A stretch of DNA of 64,000 nt from Hymenobacter canadensis (lineage in GTDB: Bacteria; Bacteroidota; Bacteroidia; Cytophagales; Hymenobacteraceae). Below the pieces are notes generated by a model. It ran no database searches. It saw nothing but the letters and a program-made list of their open reading frames with translations, and was not told the DNA's origin. Location of the stretch: positions 1,240,001 to 1,304,000 of the forward strand of contig NZ_CP114767.1 in assembly GCF_027359925.1 (NCBI RefSeq), written 5' to 3'. Below, in pieces: positions 6,615 through 51,209 of this stretch. How positions within the stretch are numbered: the first letter of the stretch is position 1; each line of letters begins with the position of its first letter. The translations under genes and the position numbers were made by a program.

Positions 6615-8828
6615 CTACTGCGCTGCGGCTTCGGCGGCCTGCGCCGGCTGCACCTTAATGTCGGTGCCCAGGCGCTGCAGGTAGGCAATCAGGGCCACGA
6701 TTTCCCGGTCTGATTTCAGCTCGATGTCTTCCTTTTTCAGGTTGGCCACGATGCCTTGCGCCTGCTGCTGGGCGTCGGCCACGGCTTGCTGGTCGAAGCC
6801 GGCGGGGTAGGGAGTTCCCAGGCCCTGCAGCACCCGGATTTTGGCCGGCAGCGTGCTGTAGTCGATGGTGTTTTCAAACAGCCACGGGTAGGGCGGCATG
6901 ATGGAGCCCGGCGACATGCTGGTGGGGTCCATCATGTGGTTGTAGTGCCAGGAGTTGGGGTACTTCTGGCCCTCGCGCTGCAAGTCGGGGCCGGTGCGCT
7001 TGCTGCCCCACAGGAAGGGCCGGTCGTAGACGTACTCGCCGGCTTTGCTGTACTCGCCGTAGCGCTCGGTTTCCGACCGGAACGGGCGCACCATCTGGGT
7101 GTGGCAGTTGGAGCAGCCTTCCTTGATGTACAGGTCGCGGCCCTGCAGCTCCAGCGGCCGGTAGGGCTTCACCGAGGCAATGGTGGGCACGTTGGACTTC
7201 ACCAGAAAAGTCGGAATCATCTCCACCGCCCCGCCGATGGCAATGGCCACCGTGGCGCCCACAGCCAGCTGAAACGGACGGCGCTCCAGCCAGCGGTGCC
7301 AGTGCCCGGACTGCACGTGCGGGTCCTGGGCTTCGGGCAGCAGGGCAGGGGCCTGGGCCTTTTCGTTGGCCAGCAGCGAGCCGGCCTGCGCCGTTTTGTA
7401 GAGGTTGTACATCAGCAGAAACACGCCGCTCAGGTAAAGCACCCCGCCAATGCCGCGCAGGTAGTACATGGGCACCAGCTGAATCACGGTTTCCAGGAAG
7501 TTGGGGTACTGCAGCATGCCCTCGGCATTGAACTGCTTCCACATCAGGCCCTGCGTGAAGCCGGCCCAGTACATGGGAATGGCGTAGAACAGGATGCCCA
7601 GCGTGCCCAGCCAGAAGTGCGTGGTGGCCAGTTTTTTGGAGTACAGCGGCGTGCGGTAGAGGCGCGGCCACAGCCAGTACAGCATCCCGAAGGTGAGGAA
7701 GCCGTTCCAGCCCAAAGCCCCCACGTGCACGTGGGCCACAATCCAGTCGGTGAAGTGGGCAATGGCATTCACGTTCTTGAGGCTCAGCATCGGGCCCTCG
7801 AAAGTGGCCATGCCGTAGGCCGTGATGGCCACCACGAAGAACTTAAGCACCGGCTCCTCGCGCACCTTGTCCCAGGCGCCGCGCAGCGTCAGCAGCCCGT
7901 TGATCATGCCGCCCCAGCTGGGCGCAATCAGCATGATGCTGAAGGCCACGCCCAAACTCTGGGCCCAGTCGGGCAGGGCCGTGTACAGCAAATGGTGCGG
8001 CCCGGCCCAGATGTAAATGAAGATCAGCGACCAGAAGTGCACGATGCTGAGCCGGTAGGAATACACCGGCCGCTCGGCGGCTTTGGGCACGAAGTAGTAC
8101 ATCAGCCCCAGGTAGGGCGTGGTCAGGAAGAAGGCCACCGCGTTGTGCCCGTACCACCACTGCACCAGCGCATCCTGCACGCCGGCGTACATGGAGTAGC
8201 TTTTGAACAAACTCACCGGCACCGCCATCGAGTTGACGATGTGCAGCACGGCCACCGTAATGAAGGTGGCAATGTAGAACCAGATGCCCACGTACAGGTG
8301 CCGCTCGCGGCGCCGGGCAATGGTGCCGAACATGTTCCAGCCGAACACCACCCACACCAGTGTAATAGCAATGTCAATGGGCCACTCCAGCTCGGCGTAT
8401 TCCTTGCTGGTGGTGATGCCCAGTGGCAGCGTGGCCACGGCCGACACGATTATCAGCTGCCAGCCCCAGAAATGCACCTTGCTGAGTACATCCGAAAACA
8501 TGCGGGCTTTGCACAGCCGCTGCAGCGAGTAGTAGACGCCGGTAAAAATGCCGTTGCCGACGAATGCGAAAATGACGGCGTTGGTATGCAGCGGCCGGAT
8601 GCGCCCGAAGGTGGTGTAAGCCGTGCCCATGTTCACCTCGGGCCTGGCTAGCTCAAACGCGGCCAGCACGCCCACCAGCATCCCGATAATGCCCCAGATG
8701 ACGGTGGCAATACCAAAGTCGCGGACAATCTTGTTGTCGTAGAAAAACGTGTCGACGGCCGGCGCGGGCGGCCTCGGGGCCGGCGGCGTTTGCGGGGCCG
8801 CGGCCGGGAGTAGGGGTTCGACTTGCAT
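6615..8828 (-). CDS. ccoNO: cbb3-type cytochrome c oxidase, fused subunits I and II (CcoN-CcoO)
   Basis: This 737-residue fusion has residues ~25-500 as the 12-helix CcoN haem-copper oxidase subunit, with His-rich ligand segments such as WWYGHNAVAFFL, GPHHLLYTALPDW and DWIVAHVHVGALGWNG. After a variable linker, one membrane helix and a cytochrome c domain with CSNCHTQMVRPF near residue 585 form CcoO. Together they are the catalytic core that reduces O2 with high affinity and pumps protons. N-O fusion is common in Bacteroidota. The first ~25 residues are a Pro/Ala-rich cytoplasmic extension. It heads the operon ccoNO-ccoQ-ccoP-ccoG-ccoH-SafE-usp. Transcription probably starts at the promoter at 8858-8922 with its two Crp/Fnr-type boxes. 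Confidence 0.95.
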   Translation of the reverse strand: MQVEPLLPAAAPQTPPAPRPPAPAVDTFFYDNKIVRDFGIATVIWGIIGMLVGVLAAFELARPEVNMGTAYTTFGRIRPLHTNAVIFAFVGNGIFTGVYYSLQRLCKARMFSDVLSKVHFWGWQLIIVSAVATLPLGITTSKEYAELEWPIDIAITLVWVVFGWNMFGTIARRRERHLYVGIWFYIATFITVAVLHIVNSMAVPVSLFKSYSMYAGVQDALVQWWYGHNAVAFFLTTPYLGLMYYFVPKAAERPVYSYRLSIVHFWSLIFIYIWAGPHHLLYTALPDWAQSLGVAFSIMLIAPSWGGMINGLLTLRGAWDKVREEPVLKFFVVAITAYGMATFEGPMLSLKNVNAIAHFTDWIVAHVHVGALGWNGFLTFGMLYWLWPRLYRTPLYSKKLATTHFWLGTLGILFYAIPMYWAGFTQGLMWKQFNAEGMLQYPNFLETVIQLVPMYYLRGIGGVLYLSGVFLLMYNLYKTAQAGSLLANEKAQAPALLPEAQDPHVQSGHWHRWLERRPFQLAVGATVAIAIGGAVEMIPTFLVKSNVPTIASVKPYRPLELQGRDLYIKEGCSNCHTQMVRPFRSETERYGEYSKAGEYVYDRPFLWGSKRTGPDLQREGQKYPNSWHYNHMMDPTSMSPGSIMPPYPWLFENTIDYSTLPAKIRVLQGLGTPYPAGFDQQAVADAQQQAQGIVANLKKEDIELKSDREIVALIAYLQRLGTDIKVQPAQAAEAAAQ

Positions 8829-8857: not shown

Positions 8858-8922
8858 CAAAGGTCCTGGCCGGCCGTTCCCGAAAAGCTGACGAAAGTCA
8901 GCCCGCTGCGTGATTGATGTCA
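8858..8922 (-). promoter_or_regulatory. ccoNO promoter with tandem TGA-N6-TCA boxes
   Basis: Read on the minus strand: TGACATCAATCA (8911-8922), 10 bp, TGACTTTCGTCA (8889-8900), 23 bp, then GACCTTTG (8858-8865), one mismatch to TAnnTTTG. Box centres are 22 bp apart, two helical turns, and fall near -63 and -41. These are the class I and class II activator positions known for Crp/Fnr proteins. The same geometry occurs at 11772-11836 and 14691-14755. Confidence 0.75.
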
Positions 8923-8931
8923 GGCAGCGGG

Positions 8932-9096
8932 CTAGGGCGCGGGCGTTTCCTGCTCGATTTCGTCCTCGAACAGCATGCGCACGGCCGGCGTGTAGTCGTC
9001 CTCGTACTGGCCCGAGCGCACCGCCCAGAAAAACGCGCCCAGAAACGTAAGCGCCACCAGCAGACTGATGCCGATAAGCAGGAAAATGATGGTCAT
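8932..9096 (-). CDS. ccoS: cbb3 oxidase maturation protein CcoS
   Basis: This 54-residue protein starts MTIIFLLIGISLLVALTFLG, one membrane helix, followed by FFWAVRSGQYEDD, the hallmark of CcoS/FixS. The tail is acidic. CcoS is needed, with the copper ATPase CcoI, for cofactor insertion into CcoN. It lies downstream of ccoI on the same strand, separated by a repeat element, and ends 10 bp before the ccoNO upstream activator box. Too short for ordinary ORF length cut-offs. Confidence 0.92.
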   Translation of the reverse strand: MTIIFLLIGISLLVALTFLGAFFWAVRSGQYEDDYTPAVRMLFEDEIEQETPAP

Positions 9097-9116
9097 GGCG
9101 GGGGAGGAGTTTGCAC

Positions 9117-9218
9117 GGTGTAGAGACGCGTATTCGCGTCTCGTCGTTGGTGATGTTGTTTAGCGGCGTGGTTTGGCGCGGTTCCGGTCGTTCAACGACC
9201 AGACGCGAATCCGCGGCC
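9117..9218. repeat. GAGACGCG-type palindromic element between ccoI and ccoS
   Basis: The left end contains the hairpin GAGACGCG-TATT-CGCGTCTC (9123-9142). The right end (about 9181-9218) has CGTTCAACGACCAGACGCG. Both ends match the element inserted inside ccoI at 9850-9949, so the two are copies of one family. Confidence 0.7.
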
Positions 9219-9220
9219 AT

Positions 9221-11752
9221 TTACAGCCCCCGCCGCCAGGCGGCCAGGTGCACAAGCAGCGTGGCAAACACCATCACGCTCAGCGAGCTGATGGGCATGA
9301 GAATGGCCGACACGATGGGCGTGAACCGGCCCTGCACCGCCAGCGTCAGCCCGATGCCGTTGTAGCAGAACGACAGCGCGAATGTGGCCAGTACGATGCG
9401 CAGGCAGTCCTGCGAGAAACTTAGGATAGTGGCCAGCTGCCCGAAGTTGCCAGCCTCCAGAATGGCGTCGCAGGCCGGGGAGAAGTTGGTGAGCGTGTCG
9501 GTGAGGGCAATGCCGACGTCGGCGCGCTGCAGGGCCCCGGCGTCGTTCAGGCCGTCGCCGACCATGACGACGGTGCAGCCCTGCTGCCGGAGCTGGGCCA
9601 CGTAGTCGAGTTTCTGCTGGGGGCTCTGGCGGAAGCGCAGCTCCGCCTGCGGGCCGAACAGCTCCCGGAGCCGGTGCTGCTCGGTATCGTTGTCGCCGCT
9701 GAGCACGGCCAGGCGGTAGCGCTGACTGAGCTTCGCCAGCACTGCGGGCAGACCCTCGCGGTAGGCGTTATGGAATGTGAAGCAGCCCTGCACCGCCTCA
9801 TCCAGCCTGACATAGACGCTGGATTGCAGGCTCGTCGTGGTTTGATTGGCGTGTAAAGACGCGACACTTCGCGTCTCGTCGTTCGCGCCGTTCGGATTGC
9901 CCACAGTAGTACCGTTCAACGCCGAGGCGCGAATTGTCGCGTCAATACAATCGTTTAACCCCACGAAGTCGGCCGAGCCAACCCGCACCGCCACGCCGCC
10001 CACGATGCCGCGCAGGCCCTGGCCGGGCACTTCGGCAAAGCCGGCTACGGCCAGCGAGCTGGCCGGCAGCTCGGCCGCCAGGCGCTGGCTGAGCGGGTGC
10101 GTGGAGTGGCGAACCAACGCGGCTACGGCCTGTAATTGGTGTGGGTTGAGGGCCAGGCCTTCATAGGAAACGGCGGCGCGGTGCACGTCGGTGAGAGTGC
10201 CGGTTTTATCGAAGACGAGGGTATCGGCGCGGCCCAGGGTTTCTACTACGGCGGCGTTTTTCAGGTACAGCTTGCGCCGGCCCAGCACCCGCAGCGCCGC
10301 CCCCAACGCAAACGGCGTGGCCAACGACAGCGCGCACGGGCAGGCAATGACCAGCACCGACGTGAAGGCCCGCAACGCCATGGCCGGGCTGCGCGGGTAC
10401 CAGTAGGCCACGGCTCCCAGGGCCAGCACCAGCGTCAGGGCCACGAAGTAGCGGCCTACGTGGTTGGCGTAGGTTTCCAGGGAGGCTTTTTCGGGTTTCT
10501 GAAAGGCGGAGTTGTTCCAGAGCTGGGTGAGGTAGCCCTGCGACACGTTACGCACCACTTCCAGCTCCACGGTTTCGCCCATCTGCCGGCCGCCGGCATA
10601 CACCAGCTCGCCGGCCGCCTTCGCCACCGGCTCACTCTCGCCCGACACAAAGCTGTAGTCGATCTGGCCGGCGCCGCGCCGCAGCACTGCATCGGCCGGA
10701 ACAAGCTCCTGGTGCCGCACCCGAATCCGCTGCCCCGGCTGCAGCTCCTTCACCGACACCGACTGTTCGCCGGCAGGCGTAAGCAGCGTCACGGCCACCG
10801 GAAAGTAGGCCGTGAAGTCCCGGTCGAAGCGCAGGGCGTCGTAGGTGCGTTGCTGCACCCATTTGCCGATCAGCATGAAGAACACCAGCCCGGTAAACGA
10901 GTCGAAGTAGCCGGGGCCGCGCTGGGTGGCCACCTCCACCACGCTGGTCACGAACAGCGCCGTGAGGCCCAGGCTGATGGGCACCTCGAGCGTGATGTGG
11001 CGCTGGCGCAAGCCCTGCCAGGCCGCCCGGTAGAAGCCGCGCGCACTCACCAGCAGCACCGGCACGGCCAGCAGCAAGCTCAGCCAGCCAAAAAACTGCC
11101 CGAAAGTGGCCTGCAGTCCCTCGGTGAAGGAAAAGTAGTCGGGGAAAGCCAGCAGCATCACGTTGCCGAAGCCGAAGGCCGCCACGCCCAGTTGGTAGTA
11201 GAGCGTGCGGCTGGCGCGGTGGGGCTGGGCACCCAGCTCGGCCAGCGTAATCTGCGGCTCGTAGCCCACGCTGGCCAGCAGCTGCACCACCGCCCGCAGC
11301 GAAGTGCGCGCCGGCCGGTAGCTGACGGTGAGCTCCTTGCGCAGAAAGTTGACCCGCGAGGACGAAATTCCCGCATCCAGCTTAAACAGATTTTCCAGCA
11401 GCCAGATGCAGGAGGCGCAGTGCATCTGCGGGATGGTGAGCGTGAGCCGCGCCAGCGTATCGGAGCGGAACGCCAGCAGCTGGCTCTGCACCGCCTCGGA
11501 GTCGAGGTAGGCGAAGCGGCCGGGCAGCTCCACGGGCTTTATCTTCTGGCCGGGCGCTGCATCGAGGCGGTAGTAGGTGCACAACTGGCTGGCTGCCAGA
11601 AGCTCATACACTGTTTTGCATCCAATACAGCAAAAGTGCAATTTCGGGTTTTCGGCCAGTTTGACAGGCTCATCGGGGCAGGCGTCGCCGCAGTGGGTGC
11701 AGGCCAGGGAGGTGAGGGTGTCGGCGGAAACGGGCGCAGTAGGCACGGGCAA
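9221..11752 (-). CDS. ccoI: Copper-transporting P-type ATPase CcoI
   Basis: This 843-residue protein has an N-terminal Cys-rich metal-binding region (THCGDACPDEP...FCCIGCKTVYELL), a heavy-metal-associated domain with MHCASCIW, then the P1B ATPase core: CPCALSLATPFA in the ion path, DKTGTLTD phosphorylation site, the STHPLS motif and GDGLNDAGAL. It exports copper for CcoN maturation. Residues ~600-640 (NGTTVGNPNGANDETRSV region) are an insertion in the nucleotide/phosphorylation region. It is encoded by a repeat element that keeps the frame open, which CcoI proteins do not normally have. ccoS follows. The promoter at 11772-11836 carries the tandem boxes also found at ccoNO. Confidence 0.93.
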   Translation of the reverse strand: MPVPTAPVSADTLTSLACTHCGDACPDEPVKLAENPKLHFCCIGCKTVYELLAASQLCTYYRLDAAPGQKIKPVELPGRFAYLDSEAVQSQLLAFRSDTLARLTLTIPQMHCASCIWLLENLFKLDAGISSSRVNFLRKELTVSYRPARTSLRAVVQLLASVGYEPQITLAELGAQPHRASRTLYYQLGVAAFGFGNVMLLAFPDYFSFTEGLQATFGQFFGWLSLLLAVPVLLVSARGFYRAAWQGLRQRHITLEVPISLGLTALFVTSVVEVATQRGPGYFDSFTGLVFFMLIGKWVQQRTYDALRFDRDFTAYFPVAVTLLTPAGEQSVSVKELQPGQRIRVRHQELVPADAVLRRGAGQIDYSFVSGESEPVAKAAGELVYAGGRQMGETVELEVVRNVSQGYLTQLWNNSAFQKPEKASLETYANHVGRYFVALTLVLALGAVAYWYPRSPAMALRAFTSVLVIACPCALSLATPFALGAALRVLGRRKLYLKNAAVVETLGRADTLVFDKTGTLTDVHRAAVSYEGLALNPHQLQAVAALVRHSTHPLSQRLAAELPASSLAVAGFAEVPGQGLRGIVGGVAVRVGSADFVGLNDCIDATIRASALNGTTVGNPNGANDETRSVASLHANQTTTSLQSSVYVRLDEAVQGCFTFHNAYREGLPAVLAKLSQRYRLAVLSGDNDTEQHRLRELFGPQAELRFRQSPQQKLDYVAQLRQQGCTVVMVGDGLNDAGALQRADVGIALTDTLTNFSPACDAILEAGNFGQLATILSFSQDCLRIVLATFALSFCYNGIGLTLAVQGRFTPIVSAILMPISSLSVMVFATLLVHLAAWRRGL
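9850..9949. repeat. Repeat element inserted in frame within ccoI
   Basis: GTGTAAAGACGCG...CGCGTCTCGTCG at the left and CGTTCAACGCCGAGGCGCG...GTCGCGTC at the right match the intergenic element at 9117-9218. It is translated on the minus strand as about 34 extra residues of CcoI without breaking the frame. Confidence 0.75.
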
Positions 11753-11771
11753 AGGGGGCTGGTGGCAGCCC

Positions 11772-11836
11772 CAAAGCTCCGCCGCACGGCGCGCCCGTTA
11801 CCTGACGAATGTCAGGCCCGCCGCTGATTCATTTCA
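11772..11836 (-). promoter_or_regulatory. ccoI promoter with tandem TGA-N6-TCA boxes
   Basis: Minus strand: TGAAATGAATCA (11825-11836), 10 bp, TGACATTCGTCA (11803-11814), 23 bp, GAGCTTTG (11772-11779). Spacing is identical to the ccoNO promoter. The proximal box extends to a 16-bp near-perfect palindrome, CCTGACGAATGTCAGG. The ccoI start codon is 20 bp downstream of the -7 element. Confidence 0.75.
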
Positions 11837-11870
11837 GGTGGCTCCGCTTCGAAAACCCGCGCCAAATATT

Positions 11871-11931
11871 CACCTTTGCCGTGTTGTTCCGGAAGGCCGG
11901 GTCGGAGTTGCTCCCGGCCTGGCCTTTTTAT
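11871..11931 (+). ncRNA. Possible small RNA or orphan terminator between the regulator gene and ccoI
   Basis: On the plus strand CACCTTTG (11871-11878), one base from TAnnTTTG, is followed within 20 bp by a hairpin (GGCCGGG 11895-11901 with CCCGGCC 11913-11919) and a T-run at 11925-11929. Neighbouring genes are on the minus strand, so a plus-strand terminator here serves no visible gene. A short ~50-nt transcript is one reading; a chance or leftover terminator is the other. Confidence 0.3.
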
Positions 11932-11991
11932 TGGCCCGGAGCGGTTGCTGAGTGGCTTTTAGCGCGTGGTTTGGCGCTTGCGGCCGGGGGC

Positions 11992-13024
<1,033 letters not shown>

Positions 13025-13047
<23 letters not shown>

Positions 13048-14641
13048 AGGGTATGGAGATGGTGACGGTGGTGCCGACCCCCAGCTGGCTGTGTAGGGCA
13101 ATGGTGCCGCCCATCAGCTCCAGGTACTTGCCAATGATGTAGAGCCCCAGGCCGGTGCCCGGGATATTGGTGACGTTGCGGGCCCGGAAAAACCGCTCGA
13201 ACAGGTGCTGCTGGTCTTCCTCCGAGATGCCCACGCCTTCGTCCTGCACCACCAGCGTGAGGCGGCCGGCTTCGGTGGCGGCGCGCACCAGCACTGTGGT
13301 GTTTTCGGCGGCGTATTTGAGGGCGTTGGACAGCAGATTGACCAGGATTTTGCGCAGCAGCGACGTGTCCAGCCAGGCGGGCTCGGTGCCCAATAGCTCC
13401 GGTACGATGCGCTGGCCGGGCCGTAGCAGCCCCTGCACGTCGGCCACGGTTTCCTGCAGCAGCTCCGGCAGATCCAGTAGGGCGGGGCGGGCCTGCACCC
13501 GGCCTTCCTCAATCCGGCCCACCGACAGAAACTCCTCCAGAATGTCGCTCAGGTGCTTCACCGAGGTGCGGATGCGGTCCAGGTGGCGCAGGCGCTTGTC
13601 CTGCTGGTCGGCGCCGGGGTACTTTTCGATGAGGGCCGCCGAGGTGAGTACCGTGGTCAGGGGCGTGCGGAACTCGTGCGAGGCCATGCTCACGAAGCGC
13701 GACTTCAGCTCGCCCAGCTCCTGCTCGGCGGCCAGGGCCTGGGTCAGCTCGCGGGTGCGCTGCTCCAGCTGGCCCAGGGTGGTCATTAGGGCGTGGGTGC
13801 GGTCGGCTACTTTGCGTTCCAGGTCGGCATTGAGGCGTTCCACGCGCTGGCGCTGGGCAATCAGCTCCCGCTCGGCGTCCTTCTTGAAGCTGATGTCGAT
13901 GATATAGGCCACCACGAACAGCTCGTCGTCGAGGTGGAAATAGCTGAGGCTGATTTCCACCGGAAATACGCTGCCATCCTGGCGCAGGGCCTCCAGCGCG
14001 CCGCGGTGGGCGCCCATCACGCGGGCCGTGGGGTGGGCGTTGAAGCCGGTGCGCAGCTGCTCGTGGCGGCGGCCGGCGGCATCGGGCACCAGCTCCTCGA
14101 TGCGGCGGCCCGTGAGGCCCTCCGGACCGCCGTAGCCGAAAAGCTCCTGGGCCTTGGCGTTGGCCAGCTCGATGCTGCCCTGGCGGTTGCAGACGATGAT
14201 GCCGATGGTGGCGTGCGCAAACACGGCCTCAAACCGGCGCAGACTCTGGGCCAACTGCTGCTCGGCCTGGTGCAGCGGCTCGGTGTTGGTGAGCCGGATC
14301 AGGAAATACGGCTGCCCTTCCAGCAGCAGTGGCGAGGCTTCTACCTGAGCCCAGAACGTGTGGCCGGCCTGGTGGCGCACCTCCAGCTCCTGCTCGTAGC
14401 GGCCTTCCTGCCGGATGTGCTCGTGCAGGGCAGCCCGCTCGGCGGGGGGCAGCGGCTCGGCGCGCAGCGTGCGGCGCGGGTCGTGGTAGAGGGCCTGGGC
14501 CGAGGGGTAGCCCAGCAGCTGGTAGCCGGCGGCATTCACCTGCGTAAACCAGCCCAGCGTCACGTCGTAGAGGCCCACAAAATCCCGGGCCTGCTCAAAC
14601 AGAATATCGGTCAGCGGATTCTGGTACAGCGCGGTAGGCAT
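13025..14641 (-). CDS. Cytosolic PAS-domain sensor histidine kinase
   Basis: 538 residues without membrane segments. PAS domains at about 10-120 and 135-260 (the second FEAVFAHATIGIIVCNRQGS) are followed by a coiled coil. Then come HisKA (SHEFRTPLTT, phospho-His near residue 322) and a HATPase domain with DEGVGISEEDQ and GTGLGLYI boxes. The N-terminal extension of the longer frame is low-complexity, so ATG 14641 is chosen. No cofactor-binding residue is evident, so the ligand (O2, redox or small molecule) is unknown. It overlaps and presumably phosphorylates the downstream receiver/Crp hybrid. The pair lies among the cbb3, usp and ldhA genes, suggesting control of low-oxygen or redox adaptation. 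Confidence 0.9.
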
Positions 14642-14690
14642 GGGGCAGCAAGAAGCGGGGAAGCGCGCAACTTGCGCAAAAAACAGCAGA

Positions 14691-14755
14691 TGACCTATCT
14701 CAGTGGGTATCCTGACGTTCGTCATATTGGCGCGGGTGGCCGGGCGGTAGTTTTG
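14691..14755 (+). promoter_or_regulatory. Promoter of the thioredoxin-like gene with tandem TGA-N6-TCA boxes
   Basis: Plus strand: TGACCTATCTCA (14691-14702), 10 bp, TGACGTTCGTCA (14713-14724), 23 bp, TAGTTTTG (14748-14755), a perfect -7 element. Because the boxes are palindromic they could also act on the divergent kinase gene, but no good -7 element lies 23 bp away on that side. Confidence 0.75.
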
Positions 14756-14786
14756 GCCTCGTATTCCCCCGTTTTCACTGTTGCCC

Positions 14787-15134
14787 ATGCCAGGCCATCT
14801 TCCACCGGTGGCGCCAGAACTGCCGGCTGCTGCCGTGCTGCTGGTGCTGCTGCCCGCGCTGCCCGTTTCGCCCCAGGCGGCCGGGCCGGCCTTTTCGGCC
14901 CCCGATCTGGCTGCGCTTCAGCGCCGGCTGGGTACGGCCGTGCAGGTAATGCAAATCAATGAGGGGGCTTTTCCGGCGGTGGTGCACAGCTTTGCGCCCG
15001 AGCAGCTGCCCACCTGCGTGCTGCTGCACCAGGGCGTGGAGCTGTGGCGCCAGCCCGGCATGCCCACCAGCGCCGGCGTGGCCGCCCTCAGCCTGGTGCT
15101 GCTGCAGGCCGGTATCGGGGGAGTTGGTGGCTAA
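14787..15134 (+). CDS. Thioredoxin-fold protein without the CxxC motif
   Basis: 115 residues. The pattern of a hydrophobic strand, helix (DLAALQRRLG), strand (AVQVMQIN), the loop-proline strand LPTCVLLHQGVELWRQPG and a final helix matches thioredoxin. However, the place of WCGPC is taken by PVSPQ, so disulfide chemistry is not expected. ATG 14787 is preferred; a TTG two codons upstream is an alternative. It has its own promoter with two activator boxes and is divergent from the kinase gene. Possible roles are scaffold, chaperone or sensor in the stress response; none can be demonstrated from sequence. Confidence 0.7.
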   Translation: MPGHLPPVAPELPAAAVLLVLLPALPVSPQAAGPAFSAPDLAALQRRLGTAVQVMQINEGAFPAVVHSFAPEQLPTCVLLHQGVELWRQPGMPTSAGVAALSLVLLQAGIGGVGG

Positions 15135-15249
15135 ATCGTCCTGGTGAATAGCCTCACGCCCCATCCTTTTCCTAAGATAAAGCGCCAGCCGGAAATTCAG
15201 GCAGCCAACGCGTCGGAAGCAGCCCGGTGGCCTGCGGCTGAAACAGCAG

Positions 15250-15299
15250 CAGGCGGGGCGGGTGTCAGGCTGCTGCCCGATGCCCGCCCCGCCTGTTTT
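15250..15299. terminator. Terminator between convergent thioredoxin-like and usp genes
   Basis: A 13-bp perfect GC-rich stem (CAGGCGGGGCGGG 15250-15262 with its complement 15283-15295) is followed by TTTT. It lies between the 3' ends of a plus-strand and a minus-strand gene. Confidence 0.75.
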
Positions 15300-15324
15300 G
15301 AGGGAGAAATATGCTGCTTTCAAG

Positions 15325-16203
15325 CTATAATAATGCTGGCCGGGCCGGGGGGTAGTGGGGAAGCCCCGAATCTGGCATCGTAGGCAGCAGCAGCACCGGC
15401 CGCTGTGCATGGCGCAGCACATGGTCGATGACGCTGCCGTGGAACAGCTTGTGCACCCAGCCGTGGCCCTGGTCGAGCAGGCCCACCATATCCGCCGACA
15501 GCTGCTGGGCGGCCTGCAGAATTCCCGGCCCCGGCCACTCGCTCATTACGGTGTGCAGCCCGCACCCGGCAATGGCGGCACTCAGGCCGGAGCGCTGCAG
15601 GGCGTGCAGGCCGGCGTGGCCCCCGATTTGCTGCTCCGGCGTGAGCACGCACACGGCCACCACGTCGGTGCCCAGCGCATCGAGCAGAGGCGCTACGGCA
15701 GTGGCCGCCGGGCCCAGCCGGAACGGCCGGTCCTCCAGGGCCAGAGCCAGGCGGCGCGGCGCCCGCAGAGCCGAGTCGGGGAGGTGCTCTGGCACCAGCA
15801 GCAGCGGGTAGCCGGTTTCGTGGGCCAGGGGCAGGGCGCGGTTGCTGAGCCACTCGTCCAGCAGGCCATCGGTGGCGGTGAGGCCGGCCACCAGCAGCAG
15901 CGGATGGTAACGGTTGAGCGCGCGTACTACCGCCCCGGACCAGTCGGTTTCCAGCAGCTCGGCCGTGGCGGGCACGGGCATGTCGGCGGCTACCTGCGCC
16001 AGCGCCTGTCGGGTGTCCTGCACGTAGCGGGCATCGATGGGGGGCATGATGACGCCAAACTCGGTGGCCGTGAGCGGCAGCGGATAGTAGGCGTGCACCA
16101 GGTGCAGCTCGGCCCCCAGCGGCGCTGCCAAAGCGGCGGCATAGGCCCGGGCCCGTTCGGCCGCAGCCGAAAAGTCGGTGAGAACAACCAGATTGGGTTT
16201 CAT
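15325..16203 (-). CDS. Universal stress protein, two Usp domains
   Basis: 292 residues. Domain 1 begins MKPNLVVLTDFSAAAERARAYA and domain 2 follows near residue 150 (ALEDRPFRLG). Domain ends carry strands such as YPLLLVPEH and RPVLLLPTMP typical of UspA. It starts 100 bp after the usp gene at 16304-17164 on the same strand and is probably co-transcribed with it and with the small membrane peptide at 17238. The promoter region upstream of that peptide carries the Crp/Fnr-type boxes. Usp function cannot be narrowed further from sequence. Confidence 0.85.
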   Translation of the reverse strand: MKPNLVVLTDFSAAAERARAYAAALAAPLGAELHLVHAYYPLPLTATEFGVIMPPIDARYVQDTRQALAQVAADMPVPATAELLETDWSGAVVRALNRYHPLLLVAGLTATDGLLDEWLSNRALPLAHETGYPLLLVPEHLPDSALRAPRRLALALEDRPFRLGPAATAVAPLLDALGTDVVAVCVLTPEQQIGGHAGLHALQRSGLSAAIAGCGLHTVMSEWPGPGILQAAQQLSADMVGLLDQGHGWVHKLFHGSVIDHVLRHAQRPVLLLPTMPDSGLPHYPPARPALL

Positions 16204-16303
16204 GGCGCAACGGAAAAGGTAGTGTTGTGGGTTGGAGCTACAAGGCAGCCGGACGGGCGAAGAGCCTGTACGGGCCGTGGCAGCTGCTCCGGCGGCCGGC
16301 TAC

Positions 16304-17164
16304 TCAGCACATCGGCGGCATCCAGCCGGGCTGTGCGGGGGCTTCTACCGGCAGCAGCAACACCGGCACGGGGCTGCTGCGCAGCACCTGGGCCGTCACG
16401 CTCCGGTGAAACAGCCGCCCCAGAAAGCTCCGCGGGCGGGCAATCAGCACCAGCAGGTCGGCCTGCACATCGTCCAGGGCCTGCAGAATGCCGGCGGCCG
16501 GCGGCATCAGCTTGGATTCGTAGAGCACCGGCGCGGTGGCCGGCGGCAGCAGCGCGCTCAGGTGTACGGCCCCCAGGGCCCGCTGGCCCACAAAGGCCTC
16601 CCGCTCGGTGGCGGCGGCCACGTGCACTACCGTGAAGACGGCTCCCCAGGCTGCCAGCAGCGGGGCCACGGCCCGGGTGGCGGCATTCGGCGTAAACTCT
16701 TCGGCATCGACGGCCAGCACCACCCGGCGGGGCCGGTGCCCGGCGGCGGCGGCTGGCACCAGCAGCAGCGGGCGGTGCGTGGCCCGCAGCACGGGCAGGG
16801 CCTGGTTGTGCAGCAGATGGTCGAGCATGTCCGGCTCGGGGCTCAGGCCCATGGCCAGCAGCAGCGGCTGATGCCGCCGTACGGCCTCGTCCACGGCCTC
16901 GGGGGCCGCCCACACCGATACTTCGACGGTGGCGGGCACGGTCAGGCGGGCAGCCAGCTCGTGCAGCGCCACCGACGTTTCGGCCTGGCTGCGGTAGGCC
17001 TGCGCCGTCGTCACGGTTACCAGTTCGGGGTCCAGCACCGGATTGTGGTACAGGTGCAGCAGCACCAGCCGCGCGTGCAGCGGCTCCCCGAGCAGCCCCG
17101 CATAGCGCGCAGCCTGCTCGGCGGGCTCCGCCAGATTCGTCAGTACCAGAAGGGAAGCAGGCAT
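16304..17164 (-). CDS. Universal stress protein, two Usp domains
   Basis: 286 residues with two Usp domains. The N-terminus MPASLLVLTNLAEPAEQAARYAG and the segment FHRSVTAQVLRSSPVPVLLLP near the C-terminus resemble the usp at 18687-19508 (FHQSVTAQVLLHSQLPVLVLP), so these two are recent paralogues. It lies between the 32-residue peptide gene and a third usp on the minus strand. Expression is likely driven from the promoter at 17389-17453. Confidence 0.85.
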   Translation of the reverse strand: MPASLLVLTNLAEPAEQAARYAGLLGEPLHARLVLLHLYHNPVLDPELVTVTTAQAYRSQAETSVALHELAARLTVPATVEVSVWAAPEAVDEAVRRHQPLLLAMGLSPEPDMLDHLLHNQALPVLRATHRPLLLVPAAAAGHRPRRVVLAVDAEEFTPNAATRAVAPLLAAWGAVFTVVHVAAATEREAFVGQRALGAVHLSALLPPATAPVLYESKLMPPAAGILQALDDVQADLLVLIARPRSFLGRLFHRSVTAQVLRSSPVPVLLLPVEAPAQPGWMPPMC

Positions 17165-17237
17165 GGGTCAGAGCTGGAAGGTGAGGAGTTGGATACAAGG
17201 CCGCCCGCACCGCGTGGCCGCCGGAGCGGCCTGCGCC

Positions 17238-17336
17238 TCAGGCGTTGGGCCGGTGCTGCGTGCCGCGCAGATAGGCGCTGGTGAGGGCCAGGACGGCCAG
17301 CAGCAGCGTCGTAAACAGAATTGTGGGAGTTACCAT
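17238..17336 (-). CDS. 32-residue single-pass membrane peptide heading a usp operon
   Basis: The frame from ATG 17336 encodes a short protein with a hydrophobic helix (about residues 6-21) and a basic tail (YLRGTQHRPNA). It lies 53 bp downstream of the promoter's -7 element and 73 bp before the usp start, so it would be the first gene of the transcript. Small single-helix peptides often modulate membrane complexes, but no family was recognised. Support is the promoter position and the helix; the size leaves doubt. Confidence 0.5.
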   Translation of the reverse strand: MVTPTILFTTLLLAVLALTSAYLRGTQHRPNA

Positions 17337-17388
17337 GGCGTTGGGGAGTTTAGGGCAGCGTGGCCTACAGCAGACAAAAGGGTTGGCG

Positions 17389-17453
17389 GAAACGTACGGC
17401 GTTTGTTCTGCTAATAAACTGATAAGCAACGGGCTGGACCATGACATTCGTCA
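17389..17453 (-). promoter_or_regulatory. usp operon promoter with one strong and one weak TGA-N6-TCA box
   Basis: Minus strand: TGACGAATGTCA (17442-17453), 10 bp, CGTTGCTTATCA (17420-17431, only the TCA half conserved), 23 bp, TACGTTTC (17389-17396, 7 of 8 to TAnnTTTG). The strong box is at the distal position, unlike the cco promoters, and overlaps the last codons of the upstream dehydrogenase gene. Confidence 0.6.
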
Positions 17454-18491
17454 TGCCTTTGCGCTGGCCGGCGTAGCGCTGCTGCCGGCTTTGACCGGCG
17501 GCGGTAACAGCTCGTGCGCCGGCGCCTCGCCCTGGCCCCAGGCCGTGAGGCTGGCCACGGTGGCCTCGGCAATGTTGGTGAGGGCCTCCCGGGTGAGGTA
17601 GGCCTGGTGGCCCGTGATGAGCACGTTTTTGAAGGTGAGCAGGCGGGCAAAGGTGTCGTCGAGCAGCAGGTCGCGGGTGTGGTCCGTGAAGAACAGGCCC
17701 TTCTCGGCCTCGTACACATCCAGCCCCAGAAAGCCCAGATGGCCCGATTTGAGGGCCCGCAGCGCGGCGGCCGTGTCCAGCACGCCCCCGCGCCCGGTGT
17801 TGATGAGCATCACGCCGGGCTTCATGCTTTTGAGCAGCCGCTCGTTGATCAGGTGGTGGGTGGCGGGCGTGAGCGGCGTATGCACGCTGATGATGTCGGC
17901 CTGGGCGCAGAGCTGGCTGAGCGGCACGTATTCCAGGCCGTAGCGCTCGGTCAGCTCGGGGTTGGGCTGCACATCGGTGCCCAGCAGCCGGCAGCCGAAG
18001 CCGTGCAGAATGCGCGCCACCACGGCCCCAATGCGTCCCACGCCCAGAATCCCGACCGTTTTGCCGTGCAGCTCAAACCCGATCAGCTGGTCGAGCCGGA
18101 AGTCGTTGGCGCGCAGCTGCTGGTCGGCCTGGTGCAGGTGGCGGCACAGCGTCAGCATGAGCGTCACGGCGTGCTCGGCAATGGCGTAGGGCGAGTAGTC
18201 GGGCACGTTGGCCACCCGGATGCCCAGCTGCCGGGCCGCCACCAGGTCTACGTTGTCGTAGCCGGCGGCGCGCACGGCCACATAGCGCACGCCGTAGCTG
18301 CTGAGCTGCTCCAGCACCGGCCCCGACACATCATCGGGGCTGAACACGCTGATGGCCGCCGCGCCTTGGGCCAGGTGGGCGGTGTCGGCGCACAGGCGCG
18401 TGTCCAGCAGCTGCAGCTGGTGGTGGCGGGTGTTGGCGTGTTGCAGAAAGCTGCGCTCAAACGATTGAACACTGAACAGGGTGGCGTGCAT
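17451..18491 (-). CDS. ldhA: D-2-hydroxyacid dehydrogenase, probably D-lactate dehydrogenase
   Basis: 346 residues, the usual size of fermentative LdhA. The start MHATLFSVQSFERSFL and the catalytic-domain segment AVRAAGYDNVDLVAARQLGI are typical. The NAD site is GVGRIGAVVARIL; the active site includes NTGRGGVLDTAAL and the LGLDVYE region. The reaction is NADH-dependent reduction of pyruvate to D-lactate, which recycles NADH when respiration is limited. Start ATG 18491 is chosen over 18524 because family proteins begin here and a -7 element lies 65 bp upstream. It shares an activator-box region with the divergent usp gene. Other 2-hydroxyacid specificity is possible. Confidence 0.85.
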   Translation of the reverse strand: MHATLFSVQSFERSFLQHANTRHHQLQLLDTRLCADTAHLAQGAAAISVFSPDDVSGPVLEQLSSYGVRYVAVRAAGYDNVDLVAARQLGIRVANVPDYSPYAIAEHAVTLMLTLCRHLHQADQQLRANDFRLDQLIGFELHGKTVGILGVGRIGAVVARILHGFGCRLLGTDVQPNPELTERYGLEYVPLSQLCAQADIISVHTPLTPATHHLINERLLKSMKPGVMLINTGRGGVLDTAAALRALKSGHLGFLGLDVYEAEKGLFFTDHTRDLLLDDTFARLLTFKNVLITGHQAYLTREALTNIAEATVASLTAWGQGEAPAHELLPPPVKAGSSATPASAKA

Positions 18492-18555
18492 AGGGGCAGG
18501 GCGAAACGCAAGCTGGCAACCCACCGAAAGCCGGCAGGCCGGGCAGCTTACCCCA

Positions 18556-18651
18556 CAAGGTTACGGCCCGGCCCGGCCGGTTTCCATGATGAATGTCATG
18601 CCGGCCGCTAAGTTTTGGCATAGGACTGCCGGCGCTGGCGCCGGTGCTTTG
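18556..18651. promoter_or_regulatory. Divergent ldhA/usp promoter region sharing a box pair
   Basis: Boxes TGATGAATGTCA (18587-18598) and TAAGTTTTGGCA (18609-18620, weak) are 22 bp apart. On the minus strand the strong box is 23 bp from TAACCTTG (18556-18563), giving an ldhA promoter. On the plus strand the weak box is 23 bp from GTGCTTTG (18644-18651), giving a usp promoter. Each box is proximal for one gene and distal for the other. Confidence 0.65.
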
Positions 18652-18686: not shown

Positions 18687-19508
18687 ATGGCTACTTCCCT
18701 GCTGATTCTCACCGACTTTTTCCAGGCCGCCAACCGCGCCCTCGACTACGCCACCAACCTGGCCGGAGCCTTGGGGGCGCGGCTGGTGCTGCTGCACGTG
18801 CGCCGTAACTCCCTGCTCGACCCTGAAATGTTCACCGGGGAGCTGTCCAACCTGAGTCAGGAGGCCATCGGCCTCGCCCTCAGTAGCCTGGCCGGCAACC
18901 TGGCCGTGCCCGTGGTGGCCGAAGTGGCGCACGGCCGCGTGGCGTATGCCGTGGCCGATGCCGTCAGCCGCTACCATCCGGCCCTCATCATCCTGGGCCG
19001 CCCCGACCAGGCCAACACGCCCGATGAGCTGGTGCAAACCACCGCCCTCGACATCCTGCGCACGGGCCCGTATCCTATGCTGGTGGTGCCCCACAGTCAG
19101 CAAACCACCGCTCCGCCCCGGCGCGTACTGCTGGCCGTTGATGGCGAGCCGTTCACGCTCGGCGAGTATGCCGGCTCCGCCCGCCACCTGCTCACGGCCC
19201 TGCAGGCCCAGCTCACGGTGCTGCACGTCGCCCCCGACGGCGCTTCGTCGGCTGCCACCGAAACCCAGGCCCTGGACTCCGTGTTGCGCACCGGCCTCAC
19301 CATCAATTTGCCGCCGGTGCACACCCGCACGATCGGGCACGCGCACCCCGCCGCCGCCATCCTGCACGCCGCCAACCCCGCCGATTATGATCTGGTGGTG
19401 CTGGTTGCCCGGCACCGGAGCTTCTTCGGGCAGCTCTTCCACCAAAGCGTAACGGCCCAGGTGTTACTGCACAGCCAGCTGCCGGTGCTGGTGCTGCCCG
19501 CGGCGTAG
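18687..19508 (+). CDS. Universal stress protein, two Usp domains
   Basis: 273 residues. It starts MATSLLILTDFFQAANRALD and its second domain begins near residue 147 (VLLAVDGEPFTLG). It is the closest paralogue of the usp at 16304-17164, judged by shared segments in both domains. It is divergent from ldhA with a shared activator-box region, so the two are probably induced together. Confidence 0.87.
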   Translation: MATSLLILTDFFQAANRALDYATNLAGALGARLVLLHVRRNSLLDPEMFTGELSNLSQEAIGLALSSLAGNLAVPVVAEVAHGRVAYAVADAVSRYHPALIILGRPDQANTPDELVQTTALDILRTGPYPMLVVPHSQQTTAPPRRVLLAVDGEPFTLGEYAGSARHLLTALQAQLTVLHVAPDGASSAATETQALDSVLRTGLTINLPPVHTRTIGHAHPAAAILHAANPADYDLVVLVARHRSFFGQLFHQSVTAQVLLHSQLPVLVLPAA

Positions 19509-49659: not shown

Positions 49660-50472
49660 TTATGCCGGATCTGTGGCGGGTGTTTCGGTGGGTTCCTCGT
49701 GCACGTCGCGGAAGAGCAGCATGGGCAGCAGGCGCTCCTCTTTGGCCGCATCGAAGCCGCAGGTGGCTTGGAACTCGCGCGGGTTGTGGTAGGTGCCGAA
49801 CAGCCAGTCCCAGAGCGGCAGGTCGCCGTAGTTGTGGCTGTGCTTCTGGTATTCGTGGTGGATGCGGTGCATTTCGGGGCGCTGAAACACGTAGCCAATC
49901 CACTGCGGCGTGCGCACGTTGGTGTGGTAGAAAAACTCGCCTAGCGCCGTGCAGAGCGTGTATACGGCCCCGGCAGCCGGGCTCAAACCCAGCAGCGTGA
50001 ACACAAGTAACCCACCCAGAATGGAGTTAACCGTCATCTCCAGCGGGTGCTTGTAAAAGGAGGTAATCACCTCAATGCGCCGGGGGCTGTGATGAATCTG
50101 GTGAAAGTGCAGCCACATAAAATCGACGGTATGCCGCCAGCGGTGCCACCAGTAGAACACGAACGTGGCCACCACATACGCCAGCACGCCGCCGGCCACC
50201 GGCCCCACATGGTGCGAGAGGTGAAACACGGAGTACTCGGACAGCCACTTCTCCCAGCTGATACCGGCCAGCAGCACCACGCCCAACTGAGCCCCATTGA
50301 TGGCCAGCACGCGTAGCGGCCACGAGGAAATCCGGGGCAGCGGCCAGCCCGGAATCAGCCGTTCGAGTACGAAGCAGCCAGCAAACGCCAGCAGAATGTA
50401 CCCGAGCATGGGCGGCAGGGTGGGCAGCTGCGGGCCACAGTCAAGCAGCAAGGAATTACAGGCGGGAAGCAT
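49660..50472 (-). CDS. Sterol desaturase/fatty acid hydroxylase family membrane protein
   Basis: 270 residues with four or so membrane helices. The di-iron histidine clusters are HRWRH (HxxxH), HFHQIHH and HRIHHEYQKH. Family members hydroxylate or desaturate lipids, for example fatty acids, sterols or carotenoids. In this window the alpha-oxoamine synthase (22255) suggests a sphingolipid or sulfonolipid as one possible target (inference). ATG 50409 is an alternative start. Confidence 0.85.
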   Translation of the reverse strand: MLPACNSLLLDCGPQLPTLPPMLGYILLAFAGCFVLERLIPGWPLPRISSWPLRVLAINGAQLGVVLLAGISWEKWLSEYSVFHLSHHVGPVAGGVLAYVVATFVFYWWHRWRHTVDFMWLHFHQIHHSPRRIEVITSFYKHPLEMTVNSILGGLLVFTLLGLSPAAGAVYTLCTALGEFFYHTNVRTPQWIGYVFQRPEMHRIHHEYQKHSHNYGDLPLWDWLFGTYHNPREFQATCGFDAAKEERLLPMLLFRDVHEEPTETPATDPA

Positions 50473-50543
50473 AGGACAAAGAGCTTGGTGAAACCATGCT
50501 CAAAGGTGTCCGACTTAACGGCGCTTTCTCTTGATCTATATCA

Positions 50544-50643
50544 AGTTGTTAGTTGGCAGTTGTCCGTTGTTAGTTCTCCGTTGATAGTTTTCGGTAGATA
50601 GTCCGGCTTTTAGGTTGAATCAGACTGACAACGGACAACTAAC
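50544..50643. repeat. GTTGTTAG/GTTGTCCG 7-nt repeat blocks
   Basis: The left block 50544-50573 is 7-nt units. The right block 50625-50643 is complementary to its second half only. It lies upstream of the hydroxylase gene, just past the stop of the regulator gene. Confidence 0.75.
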
Positions 50644-50645
50644 CG

Positions 50646-51209
50646 TCATGGCCGGGCGCGCAGGCGGCTGAGGGTTTCGGGGGTGAGGCCGAGGTGGGAG
50701 GCAATGTGCTTGAGCGGCACGTGCTGGAAGATGGCCGGGAAGTCGCGCAGCAGCAGCTGGTAGCGTTCAGCGGCGGGTAGCATGCGCAGGTGCAGGGCCC
50801 GCTGTTCGCTGAGCACATAGTAGCGCTCCGTGAGCACACGGCCCACAAAGTTGAACTCCGGAAACTGCCGGTACAGCTGCTGCAGCTGCTCCCACGATAA
50901 CGACCACAGCACGCAGTCGGTGAGCAGCTCCACGTACTCGTGCGACGGCTGCCGCGAAAAGAAGCTCAGGATGGACACCACAAAGTCGCCGTCGCGCATA
51001 AACCACGCCGACACGTCCTTGCCTTCGTGCAGCGAATAGCCGCGCACTACGCCGCGCTCCACAAAATACAGCCGCCCCGCCACCTGGCCGGGTTGGAGCA
51101 GCTGGTGTCGCCGCGGCAGCTCGTCGCGCCGTACCAACTGCTCCAACGCCTGCTGCAGGCCGTCAGAGAGCGGGCAGATAGTCTGGCATACCTGCAGAAA
51201 AGGGCCCAT
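50646..51209 (-). CDS. Crp/Fnr-family transcriptional regulator
   Basis: 187 residues. The cNMP-binding beta roll includes LYFVERGVVRGYSLHEGKDVSAWFMRDGDFV. A C-terminal helix-turn-helix follows (LKHIASHLGLTPETLSRLRA). No Fnr-type cysteine cluster. Regulators of this Bacteroidota type often sit next to their targets; the sterol-desaturase-family gene follows on the same strand. The recognition helix TPETLSRL keeps E-x3-R, so it could compete for TGA-containing sites, but nothing links it directly to the cco region. Confidence 0.88.
   Translation of the reverse strand: MGPFLQVCQTICPLSDGLQQALEQLVRRDELPRRHQLLQPGQVAGRLYFVERGVVRGYSLHEGKDVSAWFMRDGDFVVSILSFFSRQPSHEYVELLTDCVLWSLSWEQLQQLYRQFPEFNFVGRVLTERYYVLSEQRALHLRMLPAAERYQLLLRDFPAIFQHVPLKHIASHLGLTPETLSRLRARP

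Follow-up and report, generated by a model that had tools for sequence, protein, structure and literature searches.

Twin-box promoters of a cbb3 oxidase cluster

The locus described here lies in a 64,000-nucleotide stretch of the Hymenobacter canadensis genome (contig NZ_CP114767.1, positions 1,240,001 to 1,304,000), which is called the window and by which all plain positions are numbered. It encodes a fused ccoNO subunit of cbb3 oxidase, a ccoI-like ATPase, a ccoS-like protein, a thioredoxin-fold protein, three universal stress proteins, a D-2-hydroxyacid dehydrogenase, a sensor histidine kinase, and a regulator that joins a receiver domain to a CRP-type protein (REC-CRP) (Table 1). The initial annotation had proposed that six promoters of this cluster share two tandem TGA-N6-TCA boxes and a -7 element at fixed distances. 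Sequence comparison strongly supports a shared regulon with putative activator boxes at fixed promoter positions.

Bacteroidota promoters have TAnnTTTG at -7 and TTG at -33. The full layout that we scored is TGA-N6-TCA, N10, TGA-N6-TCA, N23, and NAnnTTTG; it spans 65 bp and fixes 17 positions (12 box bases and five of the -7 element). A positional scan of the window at 22-bp box spacing found three sites with no mismatch, four with at most two, and eight with at most three, and no site at spacings of 21 and 23 bp. In 100 dinucleotide-preserving shuffles of the window, the same thresholds gave 0, 0, and 0.01 sites. The six promoters lie where they had been placed by reading the sequence. Those of ccoNO, ccoI, and the thioredoxin-fold gene match all 17 positions, and those of ldhA, usp2-usp1, and usp3 have three mismatches each. 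The ldhA and usp3 genes are served by one box pair read in opposite directions. The -7 element is present at the fixed N23 distance; its likeness to TAnnTTTG is imperfect, with three of the six beginning with G (GACCTTTG, GAGCTTTG, GTGCTTTG). The usp2-usp1 promoter has a poor proximal box (CGT...TCA) and a poor -7 element (TACGTTTC). The N10 and N23 sequences vary among promoters, while boxes, spacing, and -7 element are constant. Two further sites were not in the initial annotation, one at 14660-14724 and one at 50501-50565, both on the minus strand.

The genome-wide pattern search suggested with the first description found exactly three perfect layouts in the 5.09-Mb genome. All three are in the window, all are intergenic, and each is no more than about 4 kb from the REC-CRP gene; their owners are ccoNO, ccoI-ccoS, and the thioredoxin-fold gene. 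With up to three mismatches there are 13 sites, eight of them in the window, and none for the reversed-pattern control. The repeated exact spacing is very unlikely to be a product of chance, as had been argued. This search and the order, genus, class, and other-class searches below used 22-bp spacing only, so per-genome counts are low. The sequence TGACNTTCRTCA has seven copies in the genome, five of them in the window; the other two (C1:1473323 and C2:48515) show no twin layout with at most two mismatches in the stretches searched (L239 and L236).

Table 1. Promoter sites and genes of the window discussed in the text
Feature	Position	Strand	Details
ccoNO promoter	8858..8922	-	Distal box 8922-8911, proximal box 8900-8889, -7 GACCTTTG at 8865-8858; ATG 8828; 0 mismatches
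ccoI-ccoS promoter	11772..11836	-	Distal box 11836-11825, proximal box 11814-11803, -7 GAGCTTTG at 11779-11772; TTG/GTG start 11752/11746; 0 mismatches
Thioredoxin-fold gene promoter	14691..14755	+	Distal box 14691-14702, proximal box 14713-14724, -7 TAGTTTTG at 14748-14755; 0 mismatches
Site toward kinase-regulator operon	14660..14724	-	Thioredoxin boxes read oppositely; weak -7 CGCGCTTC; kinase ATG 14641; 3 mismatches
Promoter of 32-codon open reading frame (ATG 17336), usp2, usp1	17389..17453	-	Distal box perfect, proximal box degenerate, -7 TACGTTTC; 3 mismatches
ldhA promoter	18556..18620	-	Distal box degenerate, proximal box TGACATTCATCA, -7 TAACCTTG; 3 mismatches
usp3 promoter	18587..18651	+	Distal box perfect, proximal box degenerate, -7 GTGCTTTG; 3 mismatches
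Probable further site	50501..50565	-	28 nt 5' of fatty-acid-hydroxylase ATG; 2 mismatches
ccoNO fusion, cbb3 oxidase subunits I + II	6615..8828	-	NCBIfam NF011053, 1311 bits, above cut-off
ccoS-like small protein	8932..9096	-	Translation; ends 10 bp before ccoNO boxes
ccoI-like heavy-metal P-type ATPase	9221..11752	-	Pfam domains
REC-CRP regulator	11992..13047	-	Receiver domain, cyclic nucleotide monophosphate (cNMP)-binding fold, Crp helix-turn-helix (Pfam)
Sensor histidine kinase, two PAS domains	13025..14641	-	Pfam; overlaps regulator gene
Thioredoxin-fold protein without CxxC motif	14787..15134	+	Predicted structure; 115 residues
usp1, universal stress protein	15325..16203	-	Pfam Usp
usp2, universal stress protein	16304..17164	-	Pfam Usp
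D-2-hydroxyacid dehydrogenase, ldhA-type by resemblance	17451..18491	-	Pfam 2-Hacid_dh domains; no NCBIfam model at cut-off
usp3, universal stress protein	18687..19508	+	Pfam Usp
Fatty-acid-hydroxylase gene	49660-50472	-	Pfam FA_hydroxylase

Conservation and distribution of the layout

Related loci were taken from named genomes by match to the regulator protein, and the best 80 of 406 were used. The nearest named relatives of the regulator are from Hymenobacter species, with up to 81% identity (records very near the source genome may be left out). In the 80 loci, TGA-N6-TCA pairs have a spacing of 22 bp in 104 cases and of 23 bp in 37, and the next most frequent spacing (44) has five; the reversed control gave two pairs in all. 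Together with the three pairs of the window this makes 144 pairs, or 288 orientations. A -7 element matching at least five of six positions lies exactly 23 nucleotides past the proximal box in 142 of these orientations, and the next offset has 13.

Downstream genes were assigned for 155 oriented promoters (-7 element matching at least four of six positions, the window's own promoters included, ATG starts only). A match to a window protein was obtained for 82, and 73 were unassigned, partly through the restriction to ATG. The thioredoxin-like gene is the commonest assignment (36 rows, including the window's own), followed by ccoNO (33), the histidine kinase and ccoI (four each), FixH-like and usp3 genes (two each), and ldhA (one). 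The FixH-like assignments, at 32-36% identity, and one usp3 assignment, at 24%, are weak. In 30 of 33 cases the ccoNO start codon follows its -7 element at 27-30 nucleotides. One locus (L063) has a perfect shared pair at 23-bp spacing between ldhA-like and usp3-like genes.

Orthologues were also searched for an upstream site with at most two mismatches, and the reversed control in this test never reached three mismatches or fewer. Such a site precedes 35 of 36 ccoNO, 26 of 27 ccoI, four of seven ldhA, five of eight usp3, and two of four usp1 orthologues. The thioredoxin-like gene is short and mostly dropped by the cut-offs (one orthologue), so its promoters were counted by downstream-gene assignment. 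At the same threshold no site was found before later genes of the cco cluster (ccoP 0/12, ccoG 0/7, and FixH 0/12; 0/31 in total) or before orthologues of two further cluster genes (window open reading frames at 1616, a Usp gene, and at 2583; 0/8 each). REC-CRP genes, which are located behind the kinase gene, have one in two of 84 cases. In three Hymenobacter loci (L029:13750, L035:12699, and L041:13129), a gene for a 130-residue globin-like protein, by eye a truncated globin, diverges from ccoI and is served by the same box pair, which has a -7 element in each direction.

The proximal box occupies the position of a -33 TTG, and the two boxes would be centered near -41 and -63 as predicted from the -7 element. 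Spacers 19 and 20 upstream of the -7 element are free, and none of the 142 promoters has a TTG at either, where about two each are expected by chance. At spacers 21-25 a TTG is impossible because proximal box letters occupy them, so its absence is weak evidence for activator dependence and does not serve as a strong argument. Taken alone, the lack of a -33 TTG is weakly indicative of an activator that might replace the -33 contact.

In the class Bacteroidia, 232 of 345 sampled genomes have a site with at most one mismatch, with up to 59 in one genome. In other classes of the phylum, a site occurs in 13 of 223 genomes, 12 of which have a single one, and the reversed control gave two (the split by kinship was counted by reading the table). 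Because the layout is strict, with 17 positions over 65 bp, and the reversed control is near zero, for about two thirds of the sampled class candidate regulons should be directly readable in the genome sequence. In the distant relatives examined, the genes behind the boxes include those for FixH, universal stress proteins, histidine kinases, a BON-domain protein, and a TerB-like protein (below cut-off). Two members of the class (G553 and G647) have 59 and 58 sites, which suggests global rather than local regulons there.

A receiver-CRP protein as candidate regulator

The regulator at 11992-13047 matches PF00027 (79.4 bits) and PF13545 (62 bits), both above the cut-off, and PF00072 (92.1 bits). 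It is a CRP/FNR superfamily regulator, with a cNMP-binding fold followed by a Crp helix-turn-helix; its receiver domain (PF00072) and the overlapping kinase gene give it the make-up of a response regulator. The recognition helix reads E-S-L-(I/S)-R, and E316 and R320 do not vary among 81 REC-CRP sequences or in 25 further rows, which include the second REC-CRP copy and two that are identical. We take this E...R pair to be that expected for a TGA half-site. Five plasmid records from Hymenobacter, Spirosoma, and Runella also carry REC-CRP relatives, and a sensor kinase or PAS protein is annotated where the match lies.

Members of this superfamily sense different signals. Iron-sulfur (Fe-S) sensing by FNR needs an N-terminal cysteine cluster and a later cysteine. 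The window regulator has one cysteine in the whole protein, located in the receiver, and the CRP half is cysteine-free in 73 of 81 REC-CRP sequences; an Fe-S FNR is therefore rejected as the identity of the window regulator. cAMP-sensing CRP has a conserved Glu and an Arg-Ser in the cAMP pocket. At the positions that we presume to be equivalent, aligned by eye, REC-CRP proteins have Y211 (79 of 81) and D222 (77 of 81), and a cAMP-type CRP is also rejected, since the pocket Glu and Arg-Ser are not there. Stand-alone CRP proteins without a receiver are of another kind: of 23 distinct sequences, 22 combine a CxxC near the N terminus with another Cys further on, in a VCFIP-like stretch, and we equate these cysteines with the FNR cluster ligands. 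In a midpoint-rooted tree of 62 sequences, REC-CRP and stand-alone proteins fall on two sides of one branch (support 100/99); the stand-alone sequences came from 24 genomes, 22 of them chosen for lacking a REC-CRP hit.

Association across genomes points to REC-CRP. The genus survey covered 120 genomes, and presence of REC-CRP was set at E < 1e-50; the lowest match counted as present (G244, 2.7e-52) has a broken frame, and the best counted as absent is near 1e-35. At least two sites were found in 82 of 89 genomes with REC-CRP versus three of 31 without (Fisher 1e-17). A ccoNO match occurs in 65 genomes, all with REC-CRP, and in none of the 31 genomes without it. Mere loss of the cbb3 cluster does not explain the association, because the contrast persists among genomes without a ccoNO match (at least two sites in 18 of 24 with REC-CRP versus three of 31 without; 8e-7). 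Grouped by CRP content, at least two sites are present in 14 of 18 genomes in which REC-CRP is the sole match, three of 21 with only a stand-alone CRP, and none of 10 with neither. Since site counts follow REC-CRP in genomes with a single CRP type, it is favored over the FNR-like stand-alone protein, and the regulator at 11992-13047 is the best candidate. The order survey covered 241 genomes, with up to eight CRP candidates scored per genome, so some REC-CRP genes may be missed; at least one site is present in 107 of 112 genomes with a REC-CRP hit versus 50 of 129 without.

Several observations weigh against REC-CRP as the regulator of a single coherent set of promoters. The 80 related loci were selected for containing REC-CRP, and their species are not independent. 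None of four usp2 orthologues has a site with at most two mismatches. Kinase orthologues have one in seven of 73 cases (17 of 73 at up to three mismatches; reversed control 0/73), and the site at 14660-14724 toward the kinase-regulator operon has a poor -7 element; autoregulation of that operon is possible, and the predicted site is only partly conserved. In the genus, a site of the searched spacing is missing from two of the 89 genomes with REC-CRP, and seven have fewer than two. In the order, the 50 genomes that have a site without a REC-CRP hit make REC-CRP untenable as sole reader of the boxes. One family (f19) has a REC-CRP hit in six of 24 genomes, and all 18 others have sites; a search with the CRP half in nine of these 18 detected a stand-alone CRP protein in every one. 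Because of such genomes in the order and in this family, the boxes do not specify REC-CRP. Two other proteins of H. canadensis could bind the boxes as well, a stand-alone FNR-like one (C1:3117050) and a second REC-CRP (C2:116917, on contig C2; 68% identity). The cysteine exception among the stand-alone proteins (L171) is a CRP protein of genome G132 on contig C3 near several sites, and it counts against a simple split between Fe-S and receiver-driven regulators; the same genome has another CRP protein, with cysteines, on C22. Some genes behind boxes in distant relatives lack an evident respiratory theme (DUF2267, DUF4136, DUF892, a GH130-like enzyme, a SprB-repeat protein, and a beta-type DNA polymerase). 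The common regulon of the initial annotation is well borne out by conservation, and the gene that it named for a binding assay is the best candidate regulator; the layout itself is confined neither to that regulator nor to that cluster.

Signal input may come through the kinase. Of the 80 related loci, 79 have a match to the kinase at 13025-14641, and in 72 the match is near full length. The second PAS domain of this kinase matches FixL haem-PAS structures weakly (E 8.7e-7 to 9e-6). A His aligns with the haem ligand in 71 of 73 kinases, and Arg is present in 54 of 73; both presumably correspond to residues with roles in haem binding. The better-scoring PAS chain 10jx also aligns a His there, so the conserved His does not prove haem binding. 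A haem PAS was accordingly set aside as proof of oxygen sensing, the His being conserved and not diagnostic. Low-oxygen regulons typically include cbb3 oxidase, its assembly factors, and globin-like genes.

The shared promoter layout is real, strongly conserved, and functionally coherent in the genus. The promoter layout, its conservation, the domain make-up, and the REC-CRP association rest on sequence. The best explanation, to which we assign a probability of about 0.72, is a local regulon of predicted activator-dependent twin-box promoters, most likely worked by REC-CRP under the adjacent PAS kinase. The kinase would phosphorylate the receiver of REC-CRP. Two CRP/FNR-family dimers would then bind the abutting boxes side by side, on the same DNA face and about two helical turns apart. 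The proximal dimer would contact RNA polymerase near -41, and the bound dimers would bring the Bacteroidota sigma factor to the -7 element. The induced genes would be those for cbb3 oxidase, its assembly gene, the thioredoxin-fold protein, universal stress proteins, and the D-lactate-type dehydrogenase, and the trigger is probably limiting oxygen or electron flow. We also lean, by a narrow margin, toward a broader proposal: an activator promoter of Bacteroidia's own, with two abutting CRP/FNR boxes at 22-23 bp, a -7 element exactly 23 bp on, a proximal box in place of -33, and two touching dimers. It would be read by an Fe-S FNR in some lineages and by a cysteine-less, kinase-answering REC-CRP in others, as a sensor swap under one promoter grammar.

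The boxes could instead be read mainly by the stand-alone FNR-like protein of the same genome, a predicted Fe-S oxygen sensor, with REC-CRP acting on other targets; relatives that lack REC-CRP may work in this way. The conserved cysteines of that family and its recognition-helix E...R, the same as in REC-CRP, agree with this, as does one genome (G105) in which the gene for a cysteine-bearing stand-alone FNR-like protein belongs to a ccoS-ccoNO-FixH cluster with perfect twin boxes in its promoters. We consider it unlikely, however, given the genus counts for genomes with a single CRP type and the clustering of all perfect sites of the H. canadensis genome round the REC-CRP gene. In another arrangement the boxes would be common to both regulators and to the second REC-CRP, and kinase and Fe-S oxygen signals would converge; this reading overlaps with the REC-CRP regulon and is not exclusive of it. 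REC-CRP and stand-alone proteins have a common layout and common recognition residues, and a separate thioredoxin-type promoter, with boxes spaced 23 bp apart and one mismatch, accompanies the second REC-CRP copy (L237:7034, contig C2). Of the 21 genomes with only a stand-alone protein, however, 18 have no more than one site, which suggests few shared targets, and we consider this arrangement less likely than not.

The signal might also be nitric oxide, redox, or general stress acting through the PAS kinase, and not oxygen, which would be compatible with the same promoter mechanism. The weak match of the second PAS to FixL haem-PAS, its non-diagnostic His, and the prominence of universal stress proteins beside cbb3 among the targets leave room for this; the typical low-oxygen character of cbb3 oxidase, its assembly factors, and globin-like genes speaks against it, as does the rhizobial FixL-type signaling that drives the same oxidase, as described in one report (PMC7888657). 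Another signal is a possibility that we rate below oxygen. Chance, or common ancestry of duplicated promoters in place of regulation, is very improbable. The promoters are clustered in 10 kb and copying is conceivable, but N10 and N23 differ between promoters while boxes, spacing, and -7 element hold, and the layout is conserved across genera and families with a control near zero. Chance is rejected because of the shuffles, the reversed-pattern controls, and this conservation.

To our knowledge, little is known of the control of high-affinity respiration in Bacteroidota outside gut genera. FNR and ANR share with REC-CRP the CRP/FNR fold, TGA-N6-TCA half-sites, and cbb3 and Usp targets; they differ in that REC-CRP mostly lacks Cys in the CRP half and has a receiver domain as input. 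Class II and class I/III tandem-site promoters of Escherichia coli CRP likewise have a proximal box near -41 and a second upstream on the same face, whereas here the boxes abut at a fixed 22-23 bp, pairing is the rule, and the sigma factor and -7 element are different. The DosS/DosT-DosR system of mycobacteria is also a kinase-regulator pair with universal stress proteins among its targets, but DosR has a LuxR-type output and unrelated boxes. In the FixL-FixJ-FixK cascade, the FixL kinase and a response regulator lead to a CRP/FNR-type activator of cbb3 oxidase genes. According to one report, the hFixL kinase, the regulator FxkR, and FixK of Rhizobium leguminosarum act in series on cbb3 oxidase genes (PMC7888657). 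Both rhizobial cascades resemble the present system in leading from a kinase and a response regulator to a CRP/FNR-type activator of cbb3 genes. They differ in that receiver and FixK-like output are here one protein, so that the cascade would be one step, and in the Bacteroidota -7 element, the twin boxes, and the putative character of the PAS haem.

Other CRP/FNR-family proteins are reported from Bacteroidota. The accessible text of one study describes MalR-like homologues in Flavobacteriales and Saprospiraceae bins, with carbon sensing predicted with a Bacteroides MalR matrix (PMC8510549). These resemble REC-CRP in family and phylum; the same text lacks the word tandem and mentions no receiver fusion. 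Twin CRP/FNR boxes or a Bacteroidota REC-CRP are not described in the available parts of PMC8510549, PMC4999443, and PMC7888657, and none was found in open-license literature searched by title and abstract start, which is weak evidence. The parts are of known kinds, and fixed twin boxes, a Bacteroidota -7 element, and a seemingly interchangeable Fe-S or receiver-driven reader look like a new combination. This amounts to a natural experiment, since one kind of box pair seems to be read by sensors of the Fe-S type in some genomes and by a fusion driven through phosphorylation in others. It also allows a test of whether two CRP-type dimers bind cooperatively with the RNA polymerase of Bacteroidota.

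Genes and minor features of the locus

Some gene names of the cluster rest on resemblance. For the ccoI-like ATPase, only the general ATPase_P-type model reached the cut-off among NCBIfam models, and the name was given by resemblance and place. The name ccoS is likewise our assumption, from resemblance. The thioredoxin-fold protein had no Pfam match. Its AlphaFold2 model, built from an alignment of 27 sequences, has a mean pLDDT (predicted local distance difference test) of 77, and Foldseek matched it to thioredoxins (best E 2.4e-5).

Three smaller features were observed. The 32-codon open reading frame (17336-17238, minus strand) leads the usp2-usp1 unit 52 nucleotides past its -7 element and looks like a single-membrane-span peptide. 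A 187-residue cNMP-binding protein with no listed DNA-binding domain is encoded at 50646-51209 (minus strand), just upstream of the fatty-acid-hydroxylase gene with the two-mismatch twin box. Palindromes resembling repetitive extragenic palindromic (REP) elements, GAGACGCG...CGCGTCTC with one to three mismatches, lie at 9856-9877 and 9924-9945 in the ccoI frame and at 9121-9142 in the gap between ccoI and ccoS, where none is expected from shuffles.

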